64,000 nt of DNA from Sycon ciliatum (taxonomy: Eukaryota; Porifera; Calcarea; Leucosolenida; Sycettidae), in assembly GCF_964019385.1 (NCBI RefSeq), contig NC_088649.1, positions 14,442,608 to 14,506,607 on the forward strand, in the 5' to 3' direction. The position numbers and the translations under genes are program-made. Shown here in pieces: positions 24,319 to 64,000 of this stretch (positions are counted from its first letter, which is position 1; every line of letters begins with the position of its first letter). The notes beneath the pieces were generated by a model. It did not search any database and was not told the DNA's origin. It was given only the letters and a program-made list of their open reading frames with translations.

Positions 24319-24354
24319 TGGGGAGAAAGAAAACGGTTTATGATAGAGTAAAAA

Positions 24355-24912: not shown

Positions 24913-24920
24913 AAAGAAGG

Positions 24921-25577
24921 ATGAGGACCTTCACACTTTCGAAAACACCCACCTCATGTAAAGATGATCAGGTGAAAAATATGACTTTCATACCCACAAA
25001 AGAAACCCTTGCTAAGGTGAGAGCAACACTCAACTCAGGATGGAGACCACCGATTATAAAAAAAGATGATGAAAAACAAAAAAAGATATATGAGGAAATG
25101 ATCAATCCCTTAGCAAAACTAAAACAGGAAACAGTTGAGTATGCTGAGGTGAGAGCTAGAGCAGCACTCAACTCAGGATGGAGACCACCGATTATAAAAA
25201 AAGATGAAGAAAAACAAGAAAAGATATATGTGGAATTGTTCCATTCCTTAACAAAACTAAAACAGGGGGCAGTTGAGTATGATGAAAAGATAGATGAGGA
25301 AATGATCAATCCCTTAGCAAAACTAAAACAGGAAACAGTTGAGTATGTTGAAAAGATAGCACGAGAGTATGAAGATGGGAAATATATTGTTGATGATGAT
25401 GAGATGGGGAATAGGTATGAGTTACCGATTGATGGTGGTGAATCCTCATCCATAGCTGAACCACCCAAAGTTGGCTCAGAAACCAACCCCACATCAGTCC
25501 TCGAAGTGAGCCAAGATGGGGTAAGTGAAAAAGCTGAAGTTGGCTCACTTCCGATTTTCTCGGAGACAGCAAGTTGA
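24921..25577 (+). CDS. Cytoplasmic-type repeat protein (unit 2)
   Basis: 218 aa, Lys/Glu-rich. 'ALNSGWRPPIIKKD' is repeated (also as TLNSGWRPPIIKKD), alternating with coiled-coil-like 'NPLAKLKQETVEY' / 'HSLTKLKQGAVEY' units, then an acidic Ser-rich tail. No signal or membrane segment. In copy 1 this is read through from the preceding membrane protein, so it may be the cytoplasmic half of one ancestral protein, split here by a frameshift. Confidence 0.5.
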   Translation: MRTFTLSKTPTSCKDDQVKNMTFIPTKETLAKVRATLNSGWRPPIIKKDDEKQKKIYEEMINPLAKLKQETVEYAEVRARAALNSGWRPPIIKKDEEKQEKIYVELFHSLTKLKQGAVEYDEKIDEEMINPLAKLKQETVEYVEKIAREYEDGKYIVDDDEMGNRYELPIDGGESSSIAEPPKVGSETNPTSVLEVSQDGVSEKAEVGSLPIFSETAS

Positions 25578-25705
25578 CTCACTTTTCTGGAACTGGGTTG
25601 AGCCAACATGGGATCAGTGTTTGGAGTTGTAAAATTAGTACTTGGAGGTGTAAAATTAGTACTTGGAGTTGTAATATTAGTACTTGGGTGTCTATCCTTT
25701 AGTAT

Positions 25706-25817
25706 AGTAGTATAGGGGGAGGGGGAGACTTTCGAGAGCGGCCCCGAAGGGCCGATCGAGAAAGTCGATTTTGGCTCACCTGGAAGGTGAGCCAGAACCC
25801 CCTCCTCCTATACTACT
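25706..25817. repeat. Terminal cloverleaf-like hairpin (unit 2)
   Basis: Same fold as 5324-5434. At stem position 13, T.G in copy 1 becomes a G-C pair here, a compensating change; position 12 is now a G.T pair. Confidence 0.8.
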
Positions 25818-27509: not shown

Positions 27510-27515
27510 ACTGCA
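27510..27515. other. Empty ACTGCA site (unit 2)
   Basis: Pre-insertion allele of the unit 3 palindrome. Confidence 0.9.
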
Positions 27516-44937: not shown

Positions 44938-45402
44938 ATGCCCACTGAAAGCCAGATGAAAGGAAATCTTAACATGGGGTTGAAACACATCATCAATCTC
45001 CGAGACTCAACAGAGGATGACTCAGCAACAACAAAGGAGTATGTTGACAGAAAGGATGGAAAGGTGAAAGTCAAAAAATTGAAGAATATCATCCCGAGCT
45101 CATCAACCACTCCACCAGAAGCCACACTTCATGTCTTTCCTATTAAATTTTACAAAAGTCCAACCAACAAACTGATTGTCATTGAGGATCTCTTCATAGT
45201 CGGTCAAGAAACAAGTGGTAGCAGAAGACGTTTTCAAGTATCCTATCGAGATGTGTTGGGAGAAAAAGCGGTAATCCGATACATTACTGAACATGATATA
45301 ACAACGGCATATCTGACCTTCATCAACAACACATTGACATTACCAACTGTGAGTGGATACGATCTCATTGATGAATGGGAGCTGGTTTATCATGAGTACT
45401 GA
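44938..45402 (+). pseudogene. Fibre-like protein, N-terminally truncated (unit 3)
   Basis: Protein-identical to 23361-23825. Confidence 0.5.
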
Positions 45403-45427
45403 AAATCTTCACTATATGTAGATAAAA

Positions 45428-45895
45428 ATGGAAATACCTCATTTGTTAATACTGTTGACCATGCTACCATTTACTCTTGGTTGTACTCGTGATCCGTTGG
45501 ATAAGGATGGACTCTGCTTGACAACGAAACCTCCTACTGTCATCCAAAGTGAAAGACCAACTCCGGTTGACATCCCTAGTGAAACATCACCACCAACAGA
45601 CCATATCACTACACAACCCCCTTACGATCAGACGAAACCAGTAAACGGGGATAACCGTCATTTGACAGACCCCAATCTTTATCTTTTATCTCTGATTGTT
45701 ATTCCAATAGTTGGTGCTGTTGTATATATCATAAAACGTTCCAGCTGTTCGATGAGTGTTGACCCTGAAAATGATCCAAGAAATTTACAACATCAACATA
45801 GGTTAGAATTTGATCCGATACCATTATCAGATATGCTAGGTGTGAACAATCTACCAAAATCACCTTCAACCTTTGATGTAACTGGTATAGTCTGA
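45428..45895 (+). CDS. Small mucin-like membrane protein (unit 3)
   Basis: Differs from the unit 2 copy by one residue (Arg instead of Thr after QSE); copy 1 also has Arg there. Confidence 0.6.
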   Translation: MEIPHLLILLTMLPFTLGCTRDPLDKDGLCLTTKPPTVIQSERPTPVDIPSETSPPTDHITTQPPYDQTKPVNGDNRHLTDPNLYLLSLIVIPIVGAVVYIIKRSSCSMSVDPENDPRNLQHQHRLEFDPIPLSDMLGVNNLPKSPSTFDVTGIV

Positions 45896-45931
45896 TGGGG
45901 AGAAAGAAAACGGTTTATGATAGAGTAAAAA

Positions 45932-46489
45932 ATGTTGAAACTGAAAATGATATCTGTTCTCTTAGAAATTATCATGTTGTGTAGTGTTTCACATTCCTTT
46001 CCAACTCCTGGGAATATATGTTGGGTAGTGGGTGATCATATAGCCTGTGTTCCTTCTCAACCACTTTTTCCTCCTGATAATGTACCAGTAGCATCGGTAG
46101 CACCGCTAACAACGGGAAAGCCAACAACAAGGTTAATACCAACAACGGTAGCTCCAACAACATCGGGAACTACGCTAACAACATCGGGAATTACACCGGG
46201 AACATCGGGAATTACATCGGGAATTACATCGGGAACATCGGGAATTACATCGGGAACATCGGGAATTACACCGGGAACATCGGGAATTACATCGGGAATT
46301 ACATCGGGAACATCGGGAACATCGGGAATTACATCGGGAATACCGACAACATCAATCCCAACGTCAACATCGGGAACATCGGGAAATACATCGGGAAAAT
46401 CAAACAACTTGATATACCTCCTTTTCCTTCTTCTTCTCATCCCCATTACTGCTGGTATATTTCACAGACAAATAAAAAAATTATCATAG
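45932..46489 (+). CDS. Mucin-like T-S-G-I-T repeat membrane protein (unit 3)
   Basis: Same protein as at 24355, with identical repeat number. Confidence 0.6.
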   Translation: MLKLKMISVLLEIIMLCSVSHSFPTPGNICWVVGDHIACVPSQPLFPPDNVPVASVAPLTTGKPTTRLIPTTVAPTTSGTTLTTSGITPGTSGITSGITSGTSGITSGTSGITPGTSGITSGITSGTSGTSGITSGIPTTSIPTSTSGTSGNTSGKSNNLIYLLFLLLLIPITAGIFHRQIKKLS

Positions 46490-46497
46490 AAAGAAGG

Positions 46498-47154
46498 ATG
46501 AGGACCTTCACACTTTCGAAAACACCCACCTCATGTAAAGATGATCAGGTGAAAAATATGACTTTCATACCCACAAAAGAAACCCTTGCTAAGGTGAGAG
46601 CAACACTCAACTCAGGATGGAGACCACCGATTATAAAAAAAGATGATGAAAAACAAAAAAAGATATATGAGGAAATGATCAATCCCTTAGCAAAACTAAA
46701 ACAGGAAACAGTTGAGTATGCTGAGGTGAGAGCTAGAGCAGCACTCAACTCAGGATGGAGACCACCGATTATAAAAAAAGATGAAGAAAAACAAGAAAAG
46801 ATATATGTGGAATTGTTCCATTCCTTAACAAAACTAAAACAGGGGGCAGTTGAGTATGATGAAAAGATAGATGAGGAAATGATCAATCCCTTAGCAAAAC
46901 TAAAACAGGAAACAGTTGAGTATGTTGAAAAGATAGCACGAGAGTATGAAGATGGGAAATATATTGTTGATGATGATGAGATGGGGAATAGGTATGAGTT
47001 ACCGATTGATGGTGGTGAATCCTCATCCATAGCTGAACCACCCAAAGTTGGCTCAGAAACCAACCCCACATCAGTCCTCGAAGTGAGCCAAGATGGGGTA
47101 AGTGAAAAAGCTGAAGTTGGCTCACTTCCGATTTTCTCGGAGACAGCAAGTTGA
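46498..47154 (+). CDS. Cytoplasmic-type repeat protein (unit 3)
   Basis: Same protein as at 24921. Confidence 0.5.
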   Translation: MRTFTLSKTPTSCKDDQVKNMTFIPTKETLAKVRATLNSGWRPPIIKKDDEKQKKIYEEMINPLAKLKQETVEYAEVRARAALNSGWRPPIIKKDEEKQEKIYVELFHSLTKLKQGAVEYDEKIDEEMINPLAKLKQETVEYVEKIAREYEDGKYIVDDDEMGNRYELPIDGGESSSIAEPPKVGSETNPTSVLEVSQDGVSEKAEVGSLPIFSETAS

Positions 47155-47282
47155 CTCACTTTTCTGGAACTGGGTTGAGCCAACATGGGATCAGTGTTTG
47201 GAGTTGTAAAATTAGTACTTGGAGGTGTAAAATTAGTACTTGGAGTTGTAATATTAGTACTTGGGTGTCTATCCTTTAGTAT

Positions 47283-47394
47283 AGTAGTATAGGGGGAGGG
47301 GGAGACTTTCGAGAGCGGCCCCGAAGGGCCGATCGAGAAAGTCGATTTTGGCTCACCTGGAAGGTGAGCCAGAACCCCCTCCTCCTATACTACT
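47283..47394. repeat. Terminal cloverleaf-like hairpin (unit 3)
   Basis: Same sequence as 25706-25817. Confidence 0.8.
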
Positions 47395-49092: not shown

Positions 49093-49098
49093 ACTGCA
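49093..49098. other. Target site duplication ACTGCA, left
   Basis: Partner at 63514-63519; single copy in units 1 and 2. Confidence 0.95.
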
Positions 49099-49130
49099 AG
49101 TAGTAAGTGCGGGGCGGGTTCTGGCCCACT
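49099..49130. repeat. Element terminus, left (inverted at 63482-63513)
   Basis: AGTAGTA start and GGTTCTGGC at 49117-49125. Confidence 0.85.
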
Positions 49131-49133
49131 TTT

Positions 49134-49222
49134 TGACCTTTGACCTTTGGGCCAAATAAGGCACACTGTGTCGGTCGTGCTTGGTCTGGCCCCGGGACCC
49201 CCCAGAGTTTGACCTTTGACCC
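49134..49222. promoter_or_regulatory. Two DR1 nuclear-receptor-type sites
   Basis: A perfect TGACCT-T-TGACCT at 49134-49146 and a near-perfect copy at 49210-49222. DR1 is the known binding format of RXR/HNF4-type receptors; use here is inferred. Mirrored at 63390-63402 and 63466-63478. Confidence 0.4.
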
Positions 49223-49299
49223 CTGGCATGCCATAAATGTGCCATAAAGGTTCTTTTCCGTGGCGAACGTGCACTTGTGCACGTTCGGTGCATTCGCAC

Positions 49300-49330
49300 C
49301 GGGGAGTAGTAAAATACGTACTATTCCCTG
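49300..49330. mobile_element. 31-bp hairpin insertion with 8-bp target duplication
   Basis: Arms CGGGGAGTAGTA / TACTATTCCCTG, flanked by ATTCGCAC at 49292-49299 and 49331-49338. Mirror copy at 63282-63312. Same style as 19649-19685. A related sequence (ctactccctgattcgcac) lies at 49481. Confidence 0.55.
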
Positions 49331-49339
49331 ATTCGCACG

Positions 49340-50123
49340 ACATAGATGTGCATTGCATGCAGCGAATGACATATTGCGCATGCGCGCATACGCACGCGGA
49401 GCATGTGACTTTCAGTGGCCCTGCGGAAAAGACGCAGTGCAACACAAGGTGTACTAGTAGTACATGTGTCATTATACTACTCCCTGATTCGCACTTCGTA
49501 GATGTGCAGCAAACAAGTGAGTTCACGTGCCATGCACTCGTTGAGCTCCAAGATCAGAATTCGGCTCAACATAGTACTTGAAGTCACCGCTCCCATTACG
49601 TCATGTACATTTACATACACCCTGTTGAAGCACTGAAGCATCGGTTTTCGGGGAATTCAACATGCGAATTTTTGAAAATTCGGCGAAAAGATGGGTAATT
49701 TCTTCAAAACCACTGTTTTTCGGCGAATTTTTCGCCCGGCCGATTAGGGAAATGCCTACTGTCCATGCAGGTCCATTAGATGCAAATTTCTATTTTGATC
49801 AGGATACAGTTAGAATCAACCGGCTACGCCCGGAGTATCATGCATTAAAACAATAATTATTATTGAAGGGGTGTCACAGTGAAGCAGTGTTGCTACGCAC
49901 CGCAAATCCCCTCTGCACTGCATCGAATCTATACTGGAGAATCCAGAGTGACCAGCAAAGAGTCACAACCCGCGGGTATCCAGTCACACTCAGGCATATC
50001 CACCATTCCCCACATATTCACTGTAACAAAACACAATACTGTTTACTATAATGCACTTTTATTTAAATGGACTTGGATGAGTCTGTAGAAGAGAACACAA
50101 TGCACGCACACGCACGCATGCGC

Positions 50124-50157
<34 letters not shown>

Positions 50158-50630
50158 GCGCGCACACACATCTAGGTTATAGTGCTATACACGTATCTAG
50201 GATTTAGGAAGCACGAGAATATGTCGAAGCACCCACACATATCCCTTCATGCAGTGTACTTCAGTAGCCCAACACATTACGACCGCTATAGCACAGGACC
50301 ATCACAAAACACATTACGACTGCTATAGCACAGGACCATCACAAAACACTACACACTGTTACTACACTGCATACACAGTTACTACACTACGCCTGTTAGT
50401 AGCTGTTACAAGTACTTACAAATAATTTTGAAAACAAATGGCACATCCCGAAGACGGCAGCTAGCTCCAGACCTTCATACATCATCATCATCTGTAAAAC
50501 CAAGCATGAGCGCACACAAACACTATTAGTGTCACGAATACGGAAGCAGGGTAAGACAAGAGGATACGAAACAAGTAAGTATCGCTATAACGAGGGGGAT
50601 AAGTATACATGTAGACAGAGCAGTGCTTAC
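49340..50630. other. Outer arm, non-coding (left)
   Basis: Holds a (CA)n tract at 50125-50170 and duplicated 'acattacgac.gctatagcacaggaccatcacaaaacac' at 50272-50350. No gene is supported. Mirrored at 61984-63275. Confidence 0.5.
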
Positions 50631-50775
50631 TTACAGGGTCCGGATACGCTCCATGGCGTCCCGGTAGTCGGACTGCAACAGCAGCCCGACTTGCCGGCCC
50701 TCCCAGTAACGGGCTCGATGGGCCGCACCCGCCAGGTGTGCGGCCACGGCCTGGCCTCCCACCAGCCTTTCTCCA
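50631..50775 (-). CDS. Candidate terminal exon (left arm)
   Basis: After an acceptor TTTTTACAG| the frame encodes about 47 residues rich in Gly/Ala/Arg ('AVAAHLAGAAHRARYWEGRQ') and ends in TAA. GC content and codon pattern are more coding-like than the flanks. A possible upstream exon ends AAGAAG|GTAAAT at 51022, but its best frame does not join in phase. Uncertain. Confidence 0.25.
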
Positions 50776-50883
50776 CTGTAAAAACGAAAGAAACCGCAGA
50801 AAGCACAGTGTCATAGAGCTCTTTTGTTGGGGGAGAGAGCTAGGAGTACTGCACACTTACCATTTGTCACAATATATTATAAG

Positions 50884-50942
50884 AAAGAGGCGGCGCTTGA
50901 CGCACCGCCTCAGGTGCTGAAACAGGGGTATAACCCCTGTAA
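50884..50942. other. Two adjacent strong stem-loops (left arm)
   Basis: GAGGCGGCG-cttga-CGCaCCGCCTC-type stem followed by the perfect ACAGGGGT...ACCCCTGT stem. Could be structured RNA or a processing signal; mirrored at 61672-61730. Confidence 0.35.
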
Positions 50943-51166
50943 GTTCCACACCGCAGTGACATGTGAAAGCCATACTGTAATGATACTGAAGTGAAGGTGT
51001 GAACCGCAAAGCAAGGCATTTACCTTCTTCCTGTCGAATTCGCTCTCCAGCTGCATAACGACATCATCCGCTAAAATCCAATCATACCAAGTAATGCAAA
51101 GGTCATCAGTTGACCTTTTGGACTTTTCAACTCTTATCCAAAACCACCAAGAGGAAAAAAAACCAG

Positions 51167-51235
51167 GATAATAATAATAATCTTTATTTCAGGATTACCC
51201 AAAGGCTAACGCCTATCTGGGGATGAAGAAGACGT
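51167..51235 (-). repeat. (TTA)n-tailed retroposon 3' end
   Basis: The minus strand reads ...GGGTAATCCTGAAATAAAG followed by ATT repeats, a typical retroposon tail. Mirrored at 61379-61447. Confidence 0.5.
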
Positions 51236-51288
51236 CAGTTGTAGAAGCGTTTGTGGAGGAGTTGTTACATTATTCTCAGTAAATAGAT

Positions 51289-52073
51289 ATGGCTGATACA
51301 TTCGGTGTAGACTTGGACGACCGGTCGTGGTCTCTCACCACGGGTCCTTTACTAATAGAAAGACGGACGCCAATAAGAACTGTTGTGGAGTTGGCAGATC
51401 AAAACGCGCAGCAAGAAATTTGGCACGTCGATGGTAGACTCCATCGGGAGGACGGACCAGCTCTTGTTGATAGTAGGGGAGTGTGCGCCTGGTGCTATGG
51501 AGGTCGCCTTCATCGCGTTAATGAACCTGCTTGGATAGGACGGGGTAGCATCGAGTACTACCTCAACGGCGTCTAGAGCCGGCGGTCCTGCAGTCAGTTA
51601 TTGTGACGCCACATGCTGTATTCTACGGTGGTATCACCACGGAAGGCTCCACAGGGAGAATGCGCCAGCGGTGATACGCAGGGAAGGTAACAATCGTGTA
51701 CGGGAGTGGTACCGATACAACCTTCGGCATAGGGAAGATGGACCTGCTTTCATCTCTCAGGAGGAGGAGGGTATCTATCAGTGGTACCTCAACGGGGTGT
51801 ATTACGGTAGCCACCATCAAGACCAGGCAATACACCCCATGGAGCTGCAGTACATCAATGTAGTGCCTACTAAGGTAGACTCGTCAGCAATAAGTCACGA
51901 GCCCATCTGTGTGATTTGTCAGGATACCCTGGACCGTCCTCTATCCAAGTTGGAGCGCGGTCATGAATTTCACTTCCACTGTATCAAGGAGTGGATCAGT
52001 TCTGCCCCTAAGCCCTACTTGCCCAACCTGCCGCTACTCCATGACTGCTGAGAACTTGGTTGAGTTCTTGTAG
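51289..52073 (+). pseudogene. DGxLHREDGPA-repeat protein with RING-H2-like finger, two frameshifts (left arm)
   Basis: ATG 51289 starts a protein with repeats of 'W..DGRLHREDGPA' type (VDGRLHREDGPALV, YGGRLHRVNEPAWI, HHGRLHRENAPAVI, NLRHREDGPAFI), known from giant-virus and bacterial MORN-like proteins. A shift near 51575, at YLNGV|stop, moves to the next frame. The C-terminus has a RING-H2-like CVIC...GHEFHFHCIKEW, and the last C-x2-C pair (CPTC) is reached only after another one-base shift near 52012; the stop is then at 52071-52073. The third zinc ligand position is Arg (LERGHEFH). The intact protein would probably be a viral-type ubiquitin ligase; this copy is not functional. Confidence 0.6.
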
Positions 52074-52149
52074 TAATACATGACACAGTTGCATGTAGGC
52101 GACTACGAATGACCAGTCATGTGCTACTGATGGACACGAACACGCCACC

Positions 52150-52475
52150 CTAAATAGCCATGAGCGGCTATTTGGGCAAGGGCAACAAAGCACCTCGTGG
52201 GCGGCCAAGGTTGACACTAGCCACAAGTCTGGTCGCTCAGTTGAATAAGCTGGGTGTGCCCATGAAGACCATGGAAGCCCTTTCCAGGTGCCGGCAACAA
52301 GCAGAGGACAAGACAGACTGGAAGAAACTGTGCAGCTCGACACTCGAGGACAAATCAGTATCAACAGCTTCTACACCTTGCTGATGATGCTCACAAGACA
52401 GAAGTGGGAAAAACCACTGAATTTCTTTATTTAGTGCTCAACTACGCGAAATGTGTTATTATTATTATTATACAT
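52150..52475 (+). pseudogene. LINE 3'-end fragment (left arm)
   Basis: The 74-codon frame 52160-52384 contains GRPRLTLATSL...EDKTDWKKLC, like the C-terminal tail of non-LTR retrotransposon ORF2 (RGRP...D...WRKL), followed by a short non-coding stretch and (TTA)n at 52457. Only the 3' end is present. Confidence 0.4.
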
Positions 52476-52534
52476 GTTCAATTGTACACAGTCTGGCTGA
52501 CTGCCATTCTCTACCACACATTACCGGACACTGT

Positions 52535-53503
52535 TGTGGTTGTCGTCGCTATCGTCGTCGTTGTTGATGTTGTTGTTGGTTGTTCTCGTCGTTATCGTCG
52601 TCGTTGTTGATGTTGTTGTTGGCTGTTGCTGTCGGTTGTTGTCGGTTGTTGTCGTTTGCTGTTGGTTGTTGTTGGTTATTGTCGGTTGTTGTCGGTTGTT
52701 GTTGGTTGTTGTTGGTTGTTGTTGGTTGTTGTTGGTTGTTGTTGAGTGTTGTTGTTGGTTGTTGTTGATTGTTGTCGGTTGTTGGGTGTTGTTGTCGGTT
52801 GTTGGGTGTTGTTGTTGGCTGTTGGGTGTTGTTGTTGTCGGTTGTTGGGTGCTGTTGTTGGTTGTTGTTGGTTGTTGTTGGTTGTTGCCGGATGTTGTCA
52901 GTTGTTGTTGGTTGTTGTTGGTTGTTGTTGTCGGTTGTTGTCGGTTGTTGTCGGTTGTTGTTGGTTGCTGTTGGTTGTTGTTGGTTGTTGTTGGTTGTTG
53001 TTGAGTGTTGTTGTTGGTTGTTGTTGATTGTTGTCGGTTGTTGGGTGTTTTTGTCGGTTGTTGGGTGTTGTTGTTGGTTGTTGGGTGTTGTTGTTGTCGG
53101 TTGTTGGGTGTTGTTGTTGGTTGTTGTTGGTTGTTGTTGGTTGTGCCGGATGTTGTCGGTTGTTGTTGGTTGTTGTTGTCGGTTGTTGTCGGTTGTTGTC
53201 GATTGTTGTTGGTTGTTGTTGGTTGTTGTTGGTTGTTGTTGGTTGTTGTTGGCTGTTGTTGGTTGTTGTTGTCGGTTGTTGTTGGTTGTTGTTGGTAGTT
53301 GTTGTCGGTTGCTGTCGGTTGTTGTCGGTTGTTGTCGGTTGTTGTTGTTTGTTGTTGGTTGTTGTTGGTTGTTGTTGGTTGTTGTTGGCTGTTGTTGTTT
53401 GTTGTTGGTTGTTGTTGTCGGTTGTTGTCGGTTGTTGGGTGTTGTTGTTGGTTATTGTCGGTTGTTGTCGGTTGTTGTCGGTTGTTGTCGGTTGTTGTGT
53501 TTT
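52535..53503. repeat. Imperfect (TTG)n tract, about 1 kb (left arm)
   Basis: Almost no A on the plus strand. Units such as GTTGTTGGTTGTTGTC form a higher-order pattern that itself repeats about 280 bp apart (compare 52740-52870 with 53000-53155). Open in all frames, hence many false ORFs. Confidence 0.95.
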
Positions 53504-53711
53504 AACCCTTTGCGGTGCATCAGTCATTAACGACTGATATTGTGTACATACCGTAAAACTGTCGTAACTCCATCGATTTTAGTCCTGTTGCAAATATCGA
53601 AATATGTAGATTAATCGTTATTTTGTTCATTATCCAGGAGGATGTTGCTATGATTCAGTACCATTTTTTCGCATAATGAGACAAGTTTGTGTAACGTTAG
53701 TGTGACGTGGG

Positions 53712-53752
53712 TATGCTGATTGGATGCGAGGTGGTGAGAGTATGCTGATTGG
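53712..53752 (-). promoter_or_regulatory. Paired CCAATCAGCATA motifs (left arm)
   Basis: Minus-strand CCAATCAGCAT at 53741-53752 and 53712-53723, 29 bp apart, matching the core of the CCAAT array at 55326. Mirrored at 58862-58902. Confidence 0.45.
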
Positions 53753-53905
53753 CCGATAACAATTAGTGGAAGGGATAAAGTAATGCGCTGCTTGTGCAGC
53801 GTAACCAAACACATGGTCTGTGGGAAACACCCTAGTAAAATAAATAAAATAATAATAACATGAATTGCCACCGGCACTTGAGAGACTCGAGCCCCGCCAC
53901 CTTGT

Positions 53906-54382
53906 TCAAATCGGACTTGGTAGCTTCGTATTGGAACTTAATCTTCTTCTTTTTGAGGTATGACCGTACAAAACGCGCTTGGAGTTTTCATTTATTTTAT
54001 TTTTTTTTATTTTTTTTTTCATTGCAACTTTTTTAGCAGATGTCCACTCGTGAAACAACGGTGAATCTGGAACGAATAAATGGTCCATGCCAAAGGCATG
54101 ACGAGTCTCGAAGTCTTCACATTCATGATGGAACCTTGTCATGATTGACGCATTCCTTGATGGTGCGCACATGAAATCAACCTGGCTCATCTTTTCCAAT
54201 TCCATTCTTTTCACATCCTGCAACCCATACCCTACTAGTATCAGTGGGGATGCTAGAATCAGAAGAGGCAAGGCAGCACTCTTCCGTGGATGTATTACTC
54301 GACACAACACCACCCATACTTGTTTTCTAGAAGTTTTGAATATAATGATAATATATTGCAGTAGGAAGTAGTATACAGTCAA
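53906..54382 (-). CDS. Membrane-protein-like ORF, unidentified (left arm)
   Basis: Open frame of 158 codons whose first ATG is at 54205 (99 codons); the upstream part could be an exon without its own ATG, since hydrophobic 'ALPLLILASPLILVGYGL' sits there. The C-terminal half is basic, with an A-rich tract encoding KKKIKKNKINENSKR and a KRRR cluster. It lies downstream of the 246-aa gene on the same strand. No family recognised; moderate doubt that it is a gene. Confidence 0.35.
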   Translation of the reverse strand: MTVYYFLLQYIIIIFKTSRKQVWVVLCRVIHPRKSAALPLLILASPLILVGYGLQDVKRMELEKMSQVDFMCAPSRNASIMTRFHHECEDFETRHAFGMDHLFVPDSPLFHEWTSAKKVAMKKKIKKNKINENSKRVLYGHTSKRRRLSSNTKLPSPI

Positions 54383-54442
54383 ATAGGATAGGATAAGAAT
54401 GAATGATCAGCTGTCTGATAAAGAATGCAGTTCATTAAAGAC

Positions 54443-55183
54443 TTATTGGAAGCTCTCTACCAGCTGATCGTCTTGTTGAACGGCGACACTGCATAATGAT
54501 ATGAAGCTCTCAGTTAGCTGTTTCAGTTCCGTGGTAGAAAGTGTCATGTGCGCGTCCAGAGCACGATGAAAACATCTGGGCTCCACGTGGATGCAGACGA
54601 TTGGAGCAACAGTAAGACGTACCTTCAACGCCTGCTCGTCAATGTCGAGGGAGACTGCCCCGGGGTAGATGAAAACATCTTGTTCCACATCCAGTTCGAA
54701 CGAGCTGGTCGGGACTAGCTTGCTTTCACCGTTGATGTACACCCGACATTGACCGTCGGACGAACGTGATGGGTAGAAGTTGGTCTTGATCTTCTCCACA
54801 CGTCCTCTTCGGAGAGTGTCACGGAGCGATGGACAAGTCTTGATCAAGTTCGTAATGATGAACTCAGTGGACTCATTCAGTTCGATGTAAACCTGTCCTT
54901 GAGCATCTTTGCGAGCTGTTGCCGTACTACCACAGGCTGGTAGAGCTCCTGAAGGGAAGTACATCTTATAACCAGGCTTGTAGAAGGATCTACCTGATGA
55001 CTTGTAGGACAGTTGTATGTCCTCCTGAAACCCATCCACCACAATCTCTTTGTGGAGCTTGGTAGGAGCAGGTGGCACATAGCGACGCTTAGCCGGTACT
55101 GCGTTCGAAGAGAGCACAACTTGAGGAGGGTCAGCAGGAAGAGCGGAATTCTTCCTCACCCATCGCTCGTATAGGGAATCCAT
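54443..55183 (-). CDS. Unidentified 246-aa protein (left arm)
   Basis: Start at ATG 55183 (MDSLYERW...), preferred because the longer frame lacks an upstream ATG in this arm. Mostly beta-type, soluble, no signal or membrane segment. Notable stretches: RRYVPPAPTKLHKEIVVDGF, FYKPGYKMYFPSGALPACG, LRRGRVEKIKTNFYPSR. It has its own TATA box (TATAAATA, 55263-55270) and a CCAAT array upstream, so it is likely well expressed. Conservation of an open frame in both arms despite substitutions suggests a real protein. I do not recognise the family. Confidence 0.6.
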   Translation of the reverse strand: MDSLYERWVRKNSALPADPPQVVLSSNAVPAKRRYVPPAPTKLHKEIVVDGFQEDIQLSYKSSGRSFYKPGYKMYFPSGALPACGSTATARKDAQGQVYIELNESTEFIITNLIKTCPSLRDTLRRGRVEKIKTNFYPSRSSDGQCRVYINGESKLVPTSSFELDVEQDVFIYPGAVSLDIDEQALKVRLTVAPIVCIHVEPRCFHRALDAHMTLSTTELKQLTESFISLCSVAVQQDDQLVESFQ

Positions 55184-55262
55184 CTTCCAGGAAGCGAAGG
55201 CAGAACAACTCAACAGCACTGTATTCGATGAACGAATGACTCAACTACAGGACAACCATCTG

Positions 55263-55270
55263 TATTTATA
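55263..55270 (-). promoter_or_regulatory. TATA box TATAAATA of the 246-aa gene
   Basis: About 80 bp upstream of the ATG; mirrored at 57344-57351. Confidence 0.6.
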
Positions 55271-55325
55271 CAAGTCAGAGACGGGGGCGGATTGAAATGT
55301 TAAAAATATGTGTCAGCTAGATCAA

Positions 55326-55449
55326 CCAATCACCATCAAGCCCGACACAAACATTTGCCCAATCAGCATTGAGCCCGCCAAAAACATTTGACCAACCAGC
55401 ATCAAACTCGCCAAAAACATTTTGTCCAGTCAGCGGCATGCCCACCAAA
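55326..55449 (-). promoter_or_regulatory. 33-bp tandem array with CCAAT boxes (left arm)
   Basis: Three 33-bp units starting CCAATCACCAT, CCAATCAGCAT and CCAACCAGCAT, plus a degenerate fourth (CCAGTCAGCGG). Each carries a 'CCGCCAAAAACATTTG'-like second half. CCAATCAG is the NF-Y core. The array lies 56-180 bp upstream of the TATA box. Mirrored at 57165-57288. Confidence 0.6.
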
Positions 55450-55457
55450 TAATTATC

Positions 55458-56186
55458 TCATCTTAAAGATTCCTTACATGATACAGCCACTTTAGTGAAC
55501 TGATACAGTATGGAAATAAGATCAAAGTCAAACGTGTGCAAGTTCTGAATCACGTGATCAAGTGAATAGGTTTCCCAACAATAGGCATCAATCAATGATG
55601 TCATAAGAGATGTATCAGATGGAGATAAAATCAGCAAATTCGTACGCAACGTGGACAGTTGAGATGATGACACCATCCTGGTCGACTCCATGAGATGCAG
55701 TACATATAGGAGTGGAAAATGCTGAGGAAGAGGTTTCATGATTCGACTGAACCTCAACCATGATACATTGCTCCGAGGTAAGTAGGAACGCAGTTTACGT
55801 AGTACATCCACATTCGTATCGTATACTATGCAGGATAATGCTATAGCATAGTTTAAACTCTTGTACAAACAGGATTTTTTCATCGCAAGTAACTGCTCCC
55901 GAAGAGGGTGTACGCAAAGCTGATCGGATGAGAGTTCAGTTTTCGAAAGAAAATGCAAAAGATGACGATCCACACCGCATAACCGCTCATGTACAGTGTA
56001 ACGCTTCTTCATCAAACTACATCTCCTATGCACATCATCTTCAGGGAAGTAAATCACCGCCATGACAAGTCCACACGAAGAACACACGTATCTTCCTTCA
56101 TGTAAAATATGATCAAGATGTTGACACTGTTTTTCCTCCCCGTATTGCTCTTTTTCTTCTTCTTTCTTCTTAAATTCAGAATCCAT
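55458..56186 (-). CDS. TFIIB-like zinc-ribbon protein (left arm)
   Basis: ATG 56186; 242 aa. A Lys/Glu-rich N-terminus is followed by a zinc ribbon with C21, H23 or H26, C35 and C38 (VCSSCGLVMA), the hallmark of TFIIB/TFB and viral late-transcription-factor homologues. The rest is helical and Leu-rich, compatible with degenerate cyclin folds. The inferred role is RNA polymerase II recruitment at element promoters. It is transcribed from the palindrome centre, with TATATAAAG at 56240-56248. It differs from the right-arm copy at I/V, T/A and K/T positions and one silent site. Confidence 0.65.
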   Translation of the reverse strand: MDSEFKKKEEEKEQYGEEKQCQHLDHILHEGRYVCSSCGLVMAVIYFPEDDVHRRCSLMKKRYTVHERLCGVDRHLLHFLSKTELSSDQLCVHPLREQLLAMKKSCLYKSLNYAIALSCIVYDTNVDVLRKLRSYLPRSNVSWLRFSRIMKPLPQHFPLLYVLHLMESTRMVSSSQLSTLRTNLLILSPSDTSLMTSLIDAYCWETYSLDHVIQNLHTFDFDLISILYQFTKVAVSCKESLR

Positions 56187-56239
56187 CTTCACTCCTCACC
56201 AACATCCTCATTATGACACTATATCCAGCATGATATCTA

Positions 56240-56248
56240 CTTTATATA
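56240..56248 (-). promoter_or_regulatory. TATA box of the left TFIIB-like gene
   Basis: TATATAAAG preceded by an inverted CCAAT (ATTGG) one base upstream; mirror at 56366-56374. Confidence 0.6.
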
Positions 56249-56291
56249 ACCAATCCTATCCGGGGCAATTATCAGGTACAACCATTGGGGT

Positions 56292-56321
56292 CGACGTGTT
56301 GGCGAGGGTATGAGGTCATCT
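56292..56321. other. 30-bp unique spacer at the palindrome centre
   Basis: The only sequence not in inverted duplicate; arms pair from ACCATTGGGGT outward. The right arm has one extra G shortly beyond (five Gs against four). Confidence 0.9.
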
Positions 56322-56365
56322 ACCCCAATGGTTGTACCTGATAATTGCCCCCGGATAGGATTGGT

Positions 56366-56374
56366 TATATAAAG
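56366..56374 (+). promoter_or_regulatory. TATA box of the right TFIIB-like gene
   Basis: TATATAAAG 54 bp before the ATG at 56428; together with the left box it makes the centre a bidirectional promoter. Confidence 0.6.
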
Positions 56375-56427
56375 TAGATATCATGCTGGATATAGTGTCA
56401 TAATGAGGATGTTGGTGAGGAGTGAAG

Positions 56428-57156
56428 ATGGATTCTGAATTTAAGAAGAAAGAAGAAGAAAAAGAGCAATACGGGGAGGAAAAACAGTGTCAACATCTTG
56501 ATCATGTTTTACATGAAGGAAGATACGTGTGTTCTTCGTGTGGACTTGTCATGGCGGTGATTTACTTCCCTGAAGATGATGTGCATAGGAGATGTAGTTT
56601 GATGAAGAAGCGTTACGCTGTACATGAGCGGTTATGCGGTGTGGATCGTCATCTTTTGCATTTTCTTTCGAAAACTGAACTCTCATCCGATCAGCTTTGC
56701 GTACACCCTCTTCGGGAGCAGTTACTTGCGATGACAAAATCCTGTTTGTACAAGAGTTTAAACTATGCTATAGCATTATCCTGCATAGTATACGATACGA
56801 ATGTGGATGTACTACGTAAACTGCGTTCCTACTTACCTCGTAGCAATGTATCATGGTTGAGGTTCAGTCGAATCATGAAACCTCTTCCTCAGCATTTTCC
56901 ACTCCTATATGTACTGCATCTCATGGAGTCGACCAGGATGGTGTCATCATCTCAACTGTCCACGTTGCGTACGAATTTGCTGATTTTATCTCCATCTGAT
57001 ACATCTCTTATGACATCATTGATTGATGCCTATTGTTGGGAAACCTATTCACTTGATCACGTGATTCAGAACTTGCACACGTTTGACTTTGATCTTATTT
57101 CCATACTGTATCAGTTCACTAAAGTGGCTGTATCATGTAAGGAATCTTTAAGATGA
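56428..57156 (+). CDS. TFIIB-like zinc-ribbon protein (right arm)
   Basis: Same 242-aa frame as the left arm with three noticed replacements (Val, Ala and Thr for Ile, Thr and Lys), none at the zinc ligands. Both arms are intact, so two active copies are possible. Confidence 0.65.
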   Translation: MDSEFKKKEEEKEQYGEEKQCQHLDHVLHEGRYVCSSCGLVMAVIYFPEDDVHRRCSLMKKRYAVHERLCGVDRHLLHFLSKTELSSDQLCVHPLREQLLAMTKSCLYKSLNYAIALSCIVYDTNVDVLRKLRSYLPRSNVSWLRFSRIMKPLPQHFPLLYVLHLMESTRMVSSSQLSTLRTNLLILSPSDTSLMTSLIDAYCWETYSLDHVIQNLHTFDFDLISILYQFTKVAVSCKESLR

Positions 57157-57164
57157 GATAATTA

Positions 57165-57288
57165 TTTGGTGGGCATGCCGCTGACTGGACAAAATGTTTT
57201 TGGCGAGTTTGATGCTGGTTGGTCAAATGTTTTTGGCGGGCTCAATGCTGATTGGGCAAATGTTTGTGTCGGGCTTGATGGTGATTGG
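57165..57288 (+). promoter_or_regulatory. 33-bp CCAAT array (right arm)
   Basis: Mirror of 55326-55449; TATAAATA follows at 57344-57351. Confidence 0.6.
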
Positions 57289-57430
57289 TTGATCTAGCTG
57301 ACACATATTTTTAACATTTCAATCCGCCCCCGTCTCTGACTTGTATAAATACAGATGGTTGTCCTGTAGTTGAGTCATTCGTTCATCGAATACAGTGCTG
57401 ATGAGTTGTTCTGCCTTCGCTTCCTGGAAG

Positions 57431-58171
57431 ATGGATTCCCTATACGAGCGATGGGTGAGGAAGAATTCCGCTCTTCCTGCTGACCCTCCTCAAGTTGTGC
57501 TCTCTTCGAACGCAGTACCGGCTAAGCGTCGCTATGTGCCACCTGCTCCTACCAAGCTCCACAAAGAGATTGTGGTGGATGGGTTTCAGGAGGACATGCA
57601 ACTGTCCTACAAGTCATCAGGTAGATCCTTCTACAAGCCTGGTTATAAGATGTACTTCCCTTCAGGAGCTCTACCAGCCTGTGGTAGTACGGCAACAGCT
57701 CGCAAAGATGCTCAAGGACAGGTTTACATCGAACTGAATGAGTCCACTGAGTTCATCATTACGAACTTGATCAAGACTTGTCCATCGCTCCGTGACACTC
57801 TCCGAAGAGGACGTGTGGAGAAGATCAAGACCAACTTCTACCCATCACGTTCGTCCGACGGTCAATGTCGGGTGTACATCAACGGTGAAAGCAAGCTAGT
57901 CCCGACCAGCTCGTTCGAACTGGATGTGGAACAAGATGTTTTCATCTACCCCGGGGCAGTCTCCCTCGACATTGACGAGCAGGCGTTGAAGGTACGTCTT
58001 ACTGTTGCTCCAATCGTCTGCATCCACGTGGAGCCCAGATGTTTTCATCGTGCTCTGGACGCGCACATGACACTTTCTACCACGGAACTGAAACAGCTAA
58101 CTGAGAGCTTCATATCATTATGCAGTGTCGCCGTTCAACAAGACGATCAGCTGGTAGAGAGCTTCCAATAA
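57431..58171 (+). CDS. Unidentified 246-aa protein (right arm)
   Basis: Differs from the left copy at one coding position (Met for Ile in the QED.QLSYK stretch). An extra upstream in-frame ATG (57401) exists only in this arm and would add ten residues. Confidence 0.6.
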   Translation: MDSLYERWVRKNSALPADPPQVVLSSNAVPAKRRYVPPAPTKLHKEIVVDGFQEDMQLSYKSSGRSFYKPGYKMYFPSGALPACGSTATARKDAQGQVYIELNESTEFIITNLIKTCPSLRDTLRRGRVEKIKTNFYPSRSSDGQCRVYINGESKLVPTSSFELDVEQDVFIYPGAVSLDIDEQALKVRLTVAPIVCIHVEPRCFHRALDAHMTLSTTELKQLTESFISLCSVAVQQDDQLVESFQ

Positions 58172-58231
58172 GTCTTTAATGAACTGCATTCTTTATCAGA
58201 CAGCTGATCATTCATTCTTATCCTATCCTAT

Positions 58232-58708
58232 TTGACTGTATACTACTTCCTACTGCAATATATTATCATTATATTCAAAACTTCTAGAAAACAAGTATGG
58301 GTGGTGTTGTGTCGAGTAATACATCCACGGAAGAGTGCTGCCTTGCCTCTTCTGATTCTAGCATCCCCACTGATACTAGTAGGGTATGGGTTGCAGGATG
58401 TGAAAAGAATGGAATTGGAAAAGATGAGCCAGGTTGATTTCATGTGCGCACCATCAAGGAATGCGTCAATCATGACAAGGTTCCATCATGAATGTGAAGA
58501 CTTCGAGACTCGTCATGCCTTTGGCATGGACCATTTATTCGTTCCAGATTCACCGTTGTTTCACGAGTGGACATCTGCTAAAAAAGTTGCAATGAAAAAA
58601 AAAATAAAAAAAAATAAAATAAATGAAAACTCCAAGCGCGTTTTGTACGGTCATACCTCAAAAAGAAGAAGATTAAGTTCCAATACGAAGCTACCAAGTC
58701 CGATTTGA
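58232..58708 (+). CDS. Membrane-protein-like ORF (right arm)
   Basis: Mirror of 53906-54382; first ATG at 58409. Confidence 0.35.
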   Translation: MTVYYFLLQYIIIIFKTSRKQVWVVLCRVIHPRKSAALPLLILASPLILVGYGLQDVKRMELEKMSQVDFMCAPSRNASIMTRFHHECEDFETRHAFGMDHLFVPDSPLFHEWTSAKKVAMKKKIKKNKINENSKRVLYGHTSKRRRLSSNTKLPSPI

Positions 58709-59110
58709 ACAAGGTGGCGGGGCTCGAGTCTCTCAAGTGCCGGTGGCAATTCATGTTATTATTATTTTATTTATTTTACTAGGGTGTTTCCCACAGACCA
58801 TGTGTTTGGTTACGCTGCACAAGCAGCGCATTACTTTATCCCTTCCACTAATTGTTATCGGCCAATCAGCATACTCTCACCACCTCGCATCCAATCAGCA
58901 TACCCACGTCACACTAACGTTACACAAACTTGTCTCATTATGCGAAAAAATGGTACTGAATCATAGCAACATCCTCCTGGATAATGAACAAAATAACGAT
59001 TAATCTACATATTTCGATATTTGCAACAGGACTAAAATCGATGGAGTTACGACAGTTTTACGGTATGTACACAATATCAGTCGTTAATGACTGATGCACC
59101 GCAAAGGGTT

Positions 59111-60079
59111 AAAACACAACAACCGACAACAACCGACAACAACCGACAACAACCGACAATAACCAACAACAACACCCAACAACCGACAACAACCGACAAC
59201 AACAACCAACAACAAACAACAACAGCCAACAACAACCAACAACAACCAACAACAACCAACAACAAACAACAACAACCGACAACAACCGACAACAACCGAC
59301 AGCAACCGACAACAACTACCAACAACAACCAACAACAACCGACAACAACAACCAACAACAGCCAACAACAACCAACAACAACCAACAACAACCAACAACA
59401 ACCAACAACAATCGACAACAACCGACAACAACCGACAACAACAACCAACAACAACCGACAACATCCGGCACAACCAACAACAACCAACAACAACCAACAA
59501 CAACACCCAACAACCGACAACAACAACACCCAACAACCAACAACAACACCCAACAACCGACAAAAACACCCAACAACCGACAACAATCAACAACAACCAA
59601 CAACAACACTCAACAACAACCAACAACAACCAACAACAACCAACAGCAACCAACAACAACCGACAACAACCGACAACAACCGACAACAACAACCAACAAC
59701 AACCAACAACAACTGACAACATCCGGCAACAACCAACAACAACCAACAACAACCAACAACAGCACCCAACAACCGACAACAACAACACCCAACAGCCAAC
59801 AACAACACCCAACAACCGACAACAACACCCAACAACCGACAACAATCAACAACAACCAACAACAACACTCAACAACAACCAACAACAACCAACAACAACC
59901 AACAACAACCAACAACAACCGACAACAACCGACAATAACCAACAACAACCAACAGCAAACGACAACAACCGACAACAACCGACAGCAACAGCCAACAACA
60001 ACATCAACAACGACGACGATAACGACGAGAACAACCAACAACAACATCAACAACGACGACGATAGCGACGACAACCACA
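59111..60079. repeat. (CAA)n tract, mirror of the (TTG)n tract
   Basis: The interruption pattern looks the same as in the left arm. Confidence 0.95.
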
Positions 60080-60138
60080 ACAGTGTCCGGTAATGTGTGG
60101 TAGAGAATGGCAGTCAGCCAGACTGTGTACAATTGAAC

Positions 60139-60464
60139 ATGTATAATAATAATAATAACACATTTCGCGTAGTTGAGCACTAAATAAAGAAATTCAGTGG
60201 TTTTTCCCACTTCTGTCTTGTGAGCATCATCAGCAAGGTGTAGAAGCTGTTGATACTGATTTGTCCTCGAGTGTCGAGCTGCACAGTTTCTTCCAGTCTG
60301 TCTTGTCCTCTGCTTGTTGCCGGCACCTGGAAAGGGCTTCCATGGTCTTCATGGGCACACCCAGCTTATTCAACTGAGCGACCAGACTTGTGGCTAGTGT
60401 CAACCTTGGCCGCCCACGAGGTGCTTTGTTGCCCTTGCCCAAATAGCCGCTCATGGCTATTTAG
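60139..60464 (-). pseudogene. LINE 3'-end fragment (right arm)
   Basis: Mirror of 52150-52475. Confidence 0.4.
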
Positions 60465-60540
60465 GGTGGCGTGTTCGTGTCCATCAGTAGCACATGACTG
60501 GTCATTCGTAGTCGCCTACATGCAACTGTGTCATGTATTA

Positions 60541-61325
60541 CTACAAGAACTCAACCAAGTTCTCAGCAGTCATGGAGTAGCGGCAGGTTGGGCAAGTAGG
60601 GCTTAGGGGCAGAACTGATCCACTCCTTGATACAGTGGAAGTGAAATTCATGACCGCGCTCCAACTTGGATAGAGGACGGTCCAGGGTATCCTGACAAAT
60701 CACACAGATGGGCTCGTGACTTATTGCTGACGAGTCTACCTTAGTAGGCACTACATTGATGTACTGCAGCTCCATGGGGTGTATTGCCTGGTCTTGATGG
60801 TGGCTACCGTAATACACCCCGTTGAGGTACCACTGATAGATACCCTCCTCCTCCTGAGAGATGAAAGCAGGTCCATCTTCCCTATGCCGAAGGTTGTATC
60901 GGTACCACTCCCGTACACGATTGTTACCTTCCCTGCGTATCACCGCTGGCGCATTCTCCCTGTGGAGCCTTCCGTGGTGATACCACCGTAGAATACAGCA
61001 TGTGGCGTCACAATAACTGACTGCAGGACCGCCGGCTCTAGACGCCGTTGAGGTAGTACTCGATGCTACCCCGTCCTATCCAAGCAGGTTCATTAACGCG
61101 ATGAAGGCGACCTCCATAGCACCAGGCGCACACTCCCCTACTATCAACAAGAGCTGGTCCGTCCTCCCGATGGAGTCTACCATCGACGTGCCAAATTTCT
61201 TGCTGCGCGTTTTGATCTGCCAACTCCACAACAGTTCTTATTGGCGTCCGTCTTTCTATTAGTAAAGGACCCGTGGTGAGAGACCACGACCGGTCGTCCA
61301 AGTCTACACCGAATGTATCAGCCAT
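60541..61325 (-). pseudogene. DGxLHREDGPA-repeat/RING protein (right arm)
   Basis: Same two frameshifts and the same lost zinc ligand as the left arm, so damage preceded (or was copied during) palindrome formation. Confidence 0.6.
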
Positions 61326-61838
61326 ATCTATTTACTGAGAATAATGTAACAACTCCTCCACAAACGCTTCTACAACTGACGTCTTCTTCATCCCCAGATA
61401 GGCGTTAGCCTTTGGGTAATCCTGAAATAAAGATTATTATTATTATCCTGGTTTTTTTTCCTCTTGGTGGTTTTGGATAAGAGTTGAAAAGTCCAAAAGG
61501 TCAACTGATGACCTTTGCATTACTTGGTATGATTGGATTTTAGCGGATGATGTCGTTATGCAGCTGGAGAGCGAATTCGACAGGAAGAAGGTAAATGCCT
61601 TGCTTTGCGGTTCACACCTTCACTTCAGTATCATTACAGTATGGCTTTCACATGTCACTGCGGTGTGGAACTTACAGGGGTTATACCCCTGTTTCAGCAC
61701 CTGAGGCGGTGCGTCAAGCGCCGCCTCTTTCTTATAATATATTGTGACAAATGGTAAGTGTGCAGTACTCCTAGCTCTCTCCCCCAACAAAAGAGCTCTA
61801 TGACACTGTGCTTTCTGCGGTTTCTTTCGTTTTTACAG

Positions 61839-61983
61839 TGGAGAAAGGCTGGTGGGAGGCCAGGCCGTGGCCGCACACCTGGCGGGTGCGGCCCATCGAG
61901 CCCGTTACTGGGAGGGCCGGCAAGTCGGGCTGCTGTTGCAGTCCGACTACCGGGACGCCATGGAGCGTATCCGGACCCTGTAA
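61839..61983 (+). CDS. Candidate terminal exon (right arm)
   Basis: Mirror of 50631-50775. Confidence 0.25.
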
Positions 61984-63513
61984 GTAAGCACTGCTCTGTC
62001 TACATGTATACTTATCCCCCTCGTTATAGCGATACTTACTTGTTTCGTATCCTCTTGTCTTACCCTGCTTCCGTATTCGTGACACTAATAGTGTTTGTGT
62101 GCGCTCATGCTTGGTTTTACAGATGATGATGATGTATGAAGGTCTGGAGCTAGCTGCCGTCTTCGGGATGTGCCATTTGTTTTCAAAATTATTTGTAAGT
62201 ACTTGTAACAGCTACTAACAGGCGTAGTGTAGTAACTGTGTATGCAGTGTAGTAACAGTGTGTAGTGTTTTGTGATGGTCCTGTGCTATAGCAGTCGTAA
62301 TGTGTTTTGTGATGGTCCTGTGCTATAGCGGTCGTAATGTGTTGGGCTACTGAAGTACACTGCATGAAGGGATATGTGTGGGTGCTTCGACATATTCTCG
62401 TGCTTCCTAAATCCTAGATACGTGTATAGCACTATAACCTAGATGTGTGTGCGCGCGCGTGTGTGTGTGTGTGTGTGTGTGTGTGTCCGCGCATGCGTGC
62501 GTGTGCGTGCATTGTGTTCTCTTCTACAGACTCATCCAAGTCCATTTAAATAAAAGTGCATTATAGTAAACAGTATTGTGTTTTGTTACAGTGAATATGT
62601 GGGGAATGGTGGATATGCCTGAGTGTGACTGGATACCCGCGGGTTGTGACTCTTTGCTGGTCACTCTGGATTCTCCAGTATAGATTCGATGCAGTGCAGA
62701 GGGGATTTGCGGTGCGTAGCAACACTGCTTCACTGTGACACCCCTTCAATAATAATTATTGTTTTAATGCATGATACTCCGGGCGTAGCCGGTTGATTCT
62801 AACTGTATCCTGATCAAAATAGAAATTTGCATCTAATGGACCTGCATGGACAGTAGGCATTTCCCTAATCGGCCGGGCGAAAAATTCGCCGAAAAACAGT
62901 GGTTTTGAAGAAATTACCCATCTTTTCGCCGAATTTTCAAAAATTCGCATGTTGAATTCCCCGAAAACCGATGCTTCAGTGCTTCAACAGGGTGTATGTA
63001 AATGTACATGACGTAATGGGAGCGGTGACTTCAAGTACTATGTTGAGCCGAATTCTGATCTTGGAGCTCAACGAGTGCATGGCACGTGAACTCACTTGTT
63101 TGCTGCACATCTACGAAGTGCGAATCAGGGAGTAGTATAATGACACATGTACTACTAGTACACCTTGTGTTGCACTGCGTCTTTTCCGCAGGGCCACTGA
63201 AAGTCACATGCTCCGCGTGCGTATGCGCGCATGCGCAATATGTCATTCGCTGCATGCAATGCACATCTATGTCGTGCGAATCAGGGAATAGTACGTATTT
63301 TACTACTCCCCGGTGCGAATGCACCGAACGTGCACAAGTGCACGTTCGCCACGGAAAAGAACCTTTATGGCACATTTATGGCATGCCAGGGGTCAAAGGT
63401 CAAACTCTGGGGGGTCCCGGGGCCAGACCAAGCACGACCGACACAGTGTGCCTTATTTGGCCCAAAGGTCAAAGGTCAAAAAGTGGGCCAGAACCCGCCC
63501 CGCACTTACTACT

Positions 63514-63519
63514 ACTGCA
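63514..63519. other. Target site duplication ACTGCA, right
   Basis: Unit 3 host sequence resumes directly with CCTGTGAGCAGG. Confidence 0.95.
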
Positions 63520-64000
63520 CCTGTGAGCAGGCTATTCACTCACCGGGCATAATTGCGCTGTCAACATTTACAACATCATGGAAGAGATTATGGCAGCAGC
63601 AAGAAGAGGCAATGAGGCGACCACTGAAGCAGCGGGGCTGTCGTACTTGCTGTTGCAGTTGGCAGTTTTGCAGCAGGTCACACACTTCTGGTTGGTGGTA
63701 GCACTGTTGCACTGTTCTTTGTTGTCCTCGCTGTGGCATTCTGATAGTTGGGCAGTGGTGGCGCAGCCTAGGGCGATAGAAGCCTTGCCAACAGACTTGA
63801 TACCTACAACATTGCAGAGCAAGTATTCCAACAGGCGCGCGTGCACACACATACATTTGCGACCTTCCAGGAAATAGTGGCACGGGTCTCCCCAGGAGAG
63901 GGGAGAGATAATCAAAAATAAATCTTGGAAAAATGACTCAGTTGGCTGTTGAACCATCCACCAGCCCCCCCCCCCCCCCCCCTGAAATCCCCCAACTCTG
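63520..64000. repeat. Tandem unit 3, continuation
   Basis: Matches 27516-28000; cut by the window end. Poly-C run at 63965-63982. Confidence 0.9.
63568..63803 (-). CDS. Ly6-like protein, exon 2 (unit 3, partial)
   Basis: Same exon and acceptor as in unit 2; exon 1 should lie about 2.4 kb beyond the window. The palindrome sits just downstream of this stop codon, probably in the 3' UTR or terminator region. Confidence 0.75.

Follow-up and report, generated by a model that had tools for sequence, protein, structure and literature searches.

By what route does a sequence of more than fourteen kilobases that is almost exactly its own mirror image come to lie in the genome of a sponge? The question is raised by a locus of Sycon ciliatum (NCBI RefSeq assembly GCF_964019385.1, contig NC_088649.1, positions 14,442,608 to 14,506,607 of the forward strand), of which we analysed a stretch of 64,000 nucleotides, hereafter the window, numbered from its first base. 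Positions 49099-63513 hold a palindromic element of 14,415 bp, in which one 7.2-kb sequence stands head to head with its own mirror image. An earlier reading made from the letters of the window (the sequence-only reading) had taken this element for a palindrome integrated in the manner of a Polinton, and had proposed that it was a snap-back product, similar to a defective viral genome, of a larger virus-like element. Our results suggest that it is not a full Polinton (a virus-like transposon) but at most a palindromic form derived from one, and a non-autonomous form at that.

A palindrome at a duplicated target site

When the window is compared with itself by blastn, the element appears as a single reverse match over 49099-63513 (14,421 columns, 99.73% identity), and an inverted-repeat search recovers it as two nested pairs, 50128-56265/56349-62486 and 49099-50168/62444-63513, each at 100% (rounded). 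With an alignment of the two halves added, these searches place the left arm on the forward strand at 49099-56291 (7,193 bp, starting AGTAGTAAG) and the right arm, its mirror on the reverse strand, at 56322-63513 (ending CTTACTACT). The arms are therefore about 7.19 kb each, with inner limits at 56291 and 56322, and they enclose an asymmetric spacer of 30 bp (56292-56321) that has no exact match of at least 10 bp anywhere else in the 64-kb window. Folded as single-stranded DNA, the central 131 bases form one hairpin interrupted only by a 1-bp indel and by the loop, as follows necessarily from palindromic arms. The architecture of the sequence-only reading, with two 7.2-kb inverted arms, a 30-bp spacer and AGTAGTA/TACTACT ends (read at 49099 and 63513), is exact to the base.

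The left end of the element reads AGTAGTAAGTGC directly after ACTGCA (49093-49098), and the right end is followed by the same six bases (63514-63519). Comparison of the flanks identifies them as a target-site duplication: a single ACTGCA stands at each of two empty sites, 5926-5931 and 27510-27515, and the 30-bp flanks are identical on both sides at both of them, so that the two clean empty sites claimed earlier are confirmed as single-copy sites. There are two because the sequence of the window is itself duplicated in tandem, the unit recurring every 21.6 kb: 5435-27515 matches 27033-49098 at 99.44% (blastn). A third tandem copy begins at 48613, is broken by the palindrome and runs beyond the end of the window. 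Between copies 1 and 2, the stretch compared shows 31 mismatches in 17,330 aligned bases, with 76 gap columns besides. Against empty copy 2, the filled site shows a single substitution over 942 bases of flank (465 on the right and 477 on the left, with 9 gap columns); against empty copy 1, it shows 10 over 944 (465 on the right and 479 on the left, with 23 gap columns). By these figures the insertion looks young, and it was probably made later than the tandem duplication.

Could the mirror image be false? Fold-back chimeras are common in long-read data, and fold-back reads that were left unsplit, or an internal region that was collapsed, would yield such a structure. A chimera, however, would return to the same flank, whereas the flanks here are two different sides of one site that share a 6-bp duplication. 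Besides, the arms differ by six substitutions, which suggests that both are separately represented in the data. We consider an artefact of assembly or sequencing improbable.

Termini of Polinton type

A survey of vertebrate Mavericks (Barreat and Katzourakis 2021, PMC8097293) gives 6-bp duplications for intact elements, (AGT)2//(ACT)2 as the commonest end motif, (AG)3//(CT)3 as another type, and terminal inverted repeats (TIRs) of 46-1,447 bp whose length varies widely. Set beside this description, the Sycon element has the 6-bp duplication, with ACTGCA on both sides and single copies at the two empty sites, and its ends, AGTAGTAAG...CTTACTACT, agree with a terminal motif of the (AGT)2//(ACT)2 or (AG)3//(CT)3 kind. 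It has terminal inverted repeats as well, yet at 7.19 kb these lie far beyond the vertebrate range.

Its termini are also related to those of other elements of the same genome. The sequence GGGTTCTGGC lies at bases 18-27 from the left terminus (49116-49125, forward strand) and from the right terminus (63487-63496, reverse strand), and it is common to the termini of two neighbours in the window: el1, which is itself only a probable Polinton, and el2, a relic related to el1. Counting both strands, it occurs five times in the 64-kb window, always at bases 18-27 from an AGTAGTA terminus. They comprise both ends of the palindrome, the terminus of el1 and one terminus in each of the two el2 copies. 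Fewer than five independent events lie behind them, because el2 was duplicated with the tandem unit and the palindrome ends are copies of each other. A similarity as strong as that between the palindrome and el1 beyond AGTAGTA itself came up twice in 20,000 mononucleotide shuffles, and among 20,000 random 33-mers of the window it was attained by 23. Judging from these bases, the palindrome appears to use the terminal sequence of resident Polinton-like elements.

Other transposons make duplications of the same size, and the element might belong to one of their groups. Dada transposons have target-site duplications of 6-7 bp. According to a further source (PMC10045372), those of IS3EU, a DDE transposon, are usually 6 bp and those of GingerRoot 6 bp. 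The same source, however, gives the ends as TA..TA for IS3EU and as TA..TA, occasionally TG..CA, for GingerRoot, whereas the palindrome ends in AG..CT and shares terminal sequence with el1. An origin in IS3EU/GingerRoot, in Dada or in another DDE group is highly improbable. In favour of the Polinton-like integration of the sequence-only reading, on the other hand, stand the ends, the 6-bp duplication and the terminal sequence found at the same offset in two other Polinton-like elements of the window, and we hold that the palindrome is very probably an insertion of the Polinton family.

What the element carries is a different matter. We collected 39 stop-to-stop open reading frames (ORFs) of at least 70 aa from 56250-63600 and scanned 26 of them, leaving aside nine minisatellite frames, two flank frames, one frame of 72 aa and one of 86 aa. 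No Pfam domain of a polymerase, integrase, capsid or packaging ATPase was detected in the 26 right-arm ORFs, so that none of the protein-primed PolB, retroviral-type integrase, capsid and A32-type ATPase genes of a Polinton was recognised among them. As no core-gene domain is found in the ORFs scanned, the palindrome has, among these, no recognised means of its own replication or integration.

How the palindrome may have arisen

A single target duplication brackets both ends, and for this reason the palindrome most likely pre-dates integration, which in turn favours snap-back replication of one genome end. The course of events that we infer involves a larger parent, protein priming, a template switch and a helper. 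The parent would be linear, with protein-primed origins at both of its ends, and would start replicating from one of them. About 7.2 kb in, the growing strand would fold back, or switch to the displaced strand, leaving a loop of 30 nt, and would then copy back to the same parental end to give a hairpin. Once copied, the hairpin would become a linear duplex, each side of which has the same origin and the same end for recognition by the integrase. An integrase of Polinton type, provided in trans, could finally insert this duplex as one unit at ACTGCA and create the 6-bp duplication. A fold-back is expected to leave a loop, and the short asymmetric spacer enclosed by the near-perfect arms answers to it. 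We retain the snap-back, defective-genome-like product proposed by the sequence-only reading, which best explains how a palindrome with two ends could have been integrated as one unit, although the fold-back step itself belongs to the model and the substitutions are not distributed as a perfect snap-back followed by even mutation would predict. We see the case for a snap-back origin before integration as evenly balanced between being right and being wrong.

Leaving the spacer aside, an alignment of the arms shows six substitutions (55016, 55213, 55773, 55879, 55997 and 56108), one indel of 2 bp within a TG/AC run (50126-50127) and one of 1 bp (56261). The position of the substitutions is one of several observations that weigh against a snap-back Polinton derivative. 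All six substitutions fall within the inner 1,276 bp of the 7,193 bp of the arm (from 55016 to the spacer), and the indel in the dinucleotide run is the sole difference in the outer 5.9 kb. Under even mutation, such clustering has a P of 2.9e-5 (all inner) or 4.2e-4 (span), in tests that were chosen post hoc, and it is not predicted by a perfect snap-back followed by even mutation. It needs either a later homogenisation of the outer arms, whether by gene conversion or by hairpin or panhandle copying from the ends, or two parents that were not identical. The other observations concern relatives. The arm has no match in 1-49098 by blastn (E 0.001) or blastp (E 0.01), so that it is no fragment of el1 as far as el1 extends into the window, and its link to el1 is confined to the terminal 35 bases. 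Three arm proteins have no relative in the viral_contigs collection, and the 256-aa ORF described below has none in genome_contigs, in single-protein scans that detect close relatives only; no parent with the arm in single copy came to light in these scans, and a Polinton origin is thus not shown by gene content.

The clustering bears directly on a second possibility, namely an internally deleted or naturally compact Polinton-type element whose TIRs of about 7.2 kb were kept alike by panhandle-type copying, all unique sequence having been lost except 30 bp. Outer arms free of substitutions, with six substitutions further in, fit a homogenisation of TIRs from the ends inward, and TIR length does vary widely among Mavericks (PMC8097293). 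Still, 7.2 kb is about five times the maximum given there for vertebrate Mavericks (46-1,447 bp), and a deletion that left just 30 bp between the TIRs and both arms intact would be a special coincidence. Such an element is possible, if unlikely. The same clustering speaks against formation of the palindrome in the chromosome after integration, in which a break in a normal Polinton would be repaired through its shared TIRs and one arm copied over the other half. Copying from arm to arm is a known property of inverted repeats, and both original ends, as well as the target-site duplication, would be retained. The copying would nevertheless have to reach precisely to the break on the template side, and an excess of divergence would be expected in the outermost part, the original TIR, where 5.9 kb carry no substitution at all. 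With a single duplication around the two ends and no substitution in the outer arms, we rank repair in the chromosome low, as a decidedly unlikely origin. The two halves may also go back to two parents that differed slightly.

If the palindrome did arise by snap-back replication, one may go further and see in it a replicating satellite of Polintons: a fold-back genome, each side of which bears the same origin and integrase end, spread in trans by a resident Polinton of the el1 type, with two or more expressed accessory genes kept in double dose, and thus an endogenous genome of the defective-interfering type from a protein-primed virus-like element. We offer this extension as a doubtful one. 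Snap-back replication itself would matter beyond this locus. Polintons are thought to replicate extrachromosomally by protein priming, like adenoviruses; to our knowledge, this mode has been inferred mainly from their gene content. Protein-primed replication would leave by-products of this kind, palindromes with one parental end on both sides that integrate as a unit, which makes the replication mode of Polintons testable from genome sequence alone. It would also mean that the integrase of a Polinton can act on a genome that is nearly devoid of unique sequence and bears the same end twice.

Arm genes, neighbouring elements and known systems

From the centre outward, each arm holds a 242-aa ORF, a 256-aa ORF, a CAA minisatellite, a RING-finger gene on the opposite strand and splice-like exons. 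In the right arm, the 242-aa ORF lies at 56428-57156 on the forward strand, with TATATAA upstream (56366-56372); its N-terminus resembles weakly a TFIIB-like zinc ribbon (Pfam PF08271, E 0.042, 13.9 bits against a cut-off of 29). The left-arm copy (55458-56186, reverse strand) is open, with three amino-acid differences. The 256-aa ORF, of no known family, lies at 57401-58171 (forward strand) with TATAAAT upstream (57344-57350); its left-arm copy (54443-55183, reverse strand) is open as well, with 246 aa from the next ATG, the first having been lost to a substitution. The two ORFs of each arm (242 and 256 aa on the right, 242 and 246 on the left) exceed the longest ORF in 300 dinucleotide shuffles (224 aa). 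A further ORF of 166 aa (58208-58708) does not exceed chance expectation, since an ORF of at least 166 aa arose in 9 of the 300 shuffles. Compared with the sequences of the PDB, one of the two long ORFs gave one match, at E 0.91, and the other none; their structures, predicted without an alignment, had a mean pLDDT (predicted local distance difference test) of 36.6 and 35.2. Among the six substitutions, four replace an amino acid, one is silent and one alters the ATG with which the 256-aa ORF begins, so that these few changes give no sign of purifying selection.

The RING-finger gene (60563-61331, reverse strand) consists of two overlapping pieces in different frames, 61038-61331 and 60563-61075, with repeats of the HREDGPA type recognised by eye and a RING domain above its cut-off (PF00097, E 1.2e-5, 25.5 bits against 21). 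Its mirror copy in the left arm, at a calculated position of about 51283-52051, is in the same split state because the outer arms carry no substitution. The CAA-type minisatellite spans 59116-60082 and, in mirror, 52532-53498. Further out, a candidate spliced zinc-finger gene was recognised by eye at 61641-61979 (forward strand) from two GTAAGT donors (61754 and 61980) and from an acceptor whose last base is 61838; its two exon stretches, taken unjoined in one frame each, had no match in a PHROGs scan. The other Pfam matches of the arm were all under their curated cut-offs (SF3a60 at E 0.0053, FIT at 0.0055, YndJ at 0.014, zf-rbx1 at 0.036, and others). At 60142-60470, on the reverse strand, a candidate truncated 3' end of a long interspersed nuclear element (LINE) with a TTA-rich tail was seen by eye, mirrored in the other arm. 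No copy of it occurs in 1-49098, its ORF tail has no Pfam match, and the stretches compared show no target duplication of more than 7 bp. Should it be genuine, it is probably older than the palindrome.

Of the neighbours, el1 spans 1-5434, its left end lying outside the window. Junction comparison places its right terminus (...CCTATACTACT) at 5415-5434 on the reverse strand, and the junction with the host at 5434/5435 is exact: host sequence restarts at AACAGC and is uninterrupted in tandem copies 2 and 3 (27033 and 48613). In tandem-unit coordinates, this site is about 490 bp from that of the palindrome. The element encodes a candidate A32-type ATPase (Pox_A32, E 2.5e-4, 21.1 bits, just under the curated cut-off of 22.8), which had no close relative in viral_contigs in a scan of the same single-protein kind; no PolB or integrase was found in the part scanned. 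The relic el2, the right end of an el1-related Polinton (23375-25817, forward strand), is 94% identical to el1 over 2.4 kb and ends in ACTACT; blastn finds its second copy, duplicated with the tandem unit, at 44952-47394. It encodes a fibre-like protein with a weak match to a PHROGs tail fibre (E 0.0013). Elsewhere in the window, long ORF pieces at 13904-15657 on the minus strand resemble by eye a decayed non-LTR (long terminal repeat) retrotransposon and have no Pfam match, and Rfam and tRNA scans of the whole window gave no match.

Relatives were also sought through the terminal motif, which was found in 104 stretches of viral_contigs. All 104 were checked, and none has an exact 20-bp inverted copy of its match; 20 share offset 17, and the contexts shown are for the most part close variants of a single sequence. 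We set these stretches aside as probably due to chance or unrelated. No palindromic Polinton is named in the titles and abstract openings of the literature searched, which for the most part excludes subscription papers and so is no proof of absence.

Among known systems, the yeast linear plasmid pGKL1 offers a likeness to a snap-back origin, as it reportedly yields hairpin and palindromic derivatives (said to be the work of Kikuchi et al. in 1985). There too, a protein-primed linear DNA would give rise to a hairpin and to a palindromic dimer with one parental end on both sides; pGKL1, however, is a cytoplasmic plasmid, and its derivatives are not known to be integrated or to carry an integrase duplication. 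With Polintons and Mavericks, as PMC8097293 describes them, the Sycon element shares the 6-bp target-site duplication, the (AGT)2//(ACT)2 ends and a size within 12.7-24.6 kb, but it differs in the length of its TIRs (7.2 kb versus 46-1,447 bp), in having no recognised core gene in the ORFs scanned and in holding nearly all of its sequence twice. A more general precedent is origin-dependent inverted-repeat amplification (ODIRA) in yeast, in which, according to PMC10766183, a template switch at short inverted repeats produces linear DNA that is first hairpin-capped and then palindromic; it differs in starting from forks of chromosomal origins, in the absence of protein priming and in integrating by homologous recombination. 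Lastly, the invertron integrations of Podospora mitochondria, as PMC1864894 presents them, also involve a linear element of the protein-primed type and long inverted repeats that may derive from panhandle-shaped replication intermediates, but the inverted repeats there are host mitochondrial DNA around the plasmid, whereas in Sycon they are the element itself.

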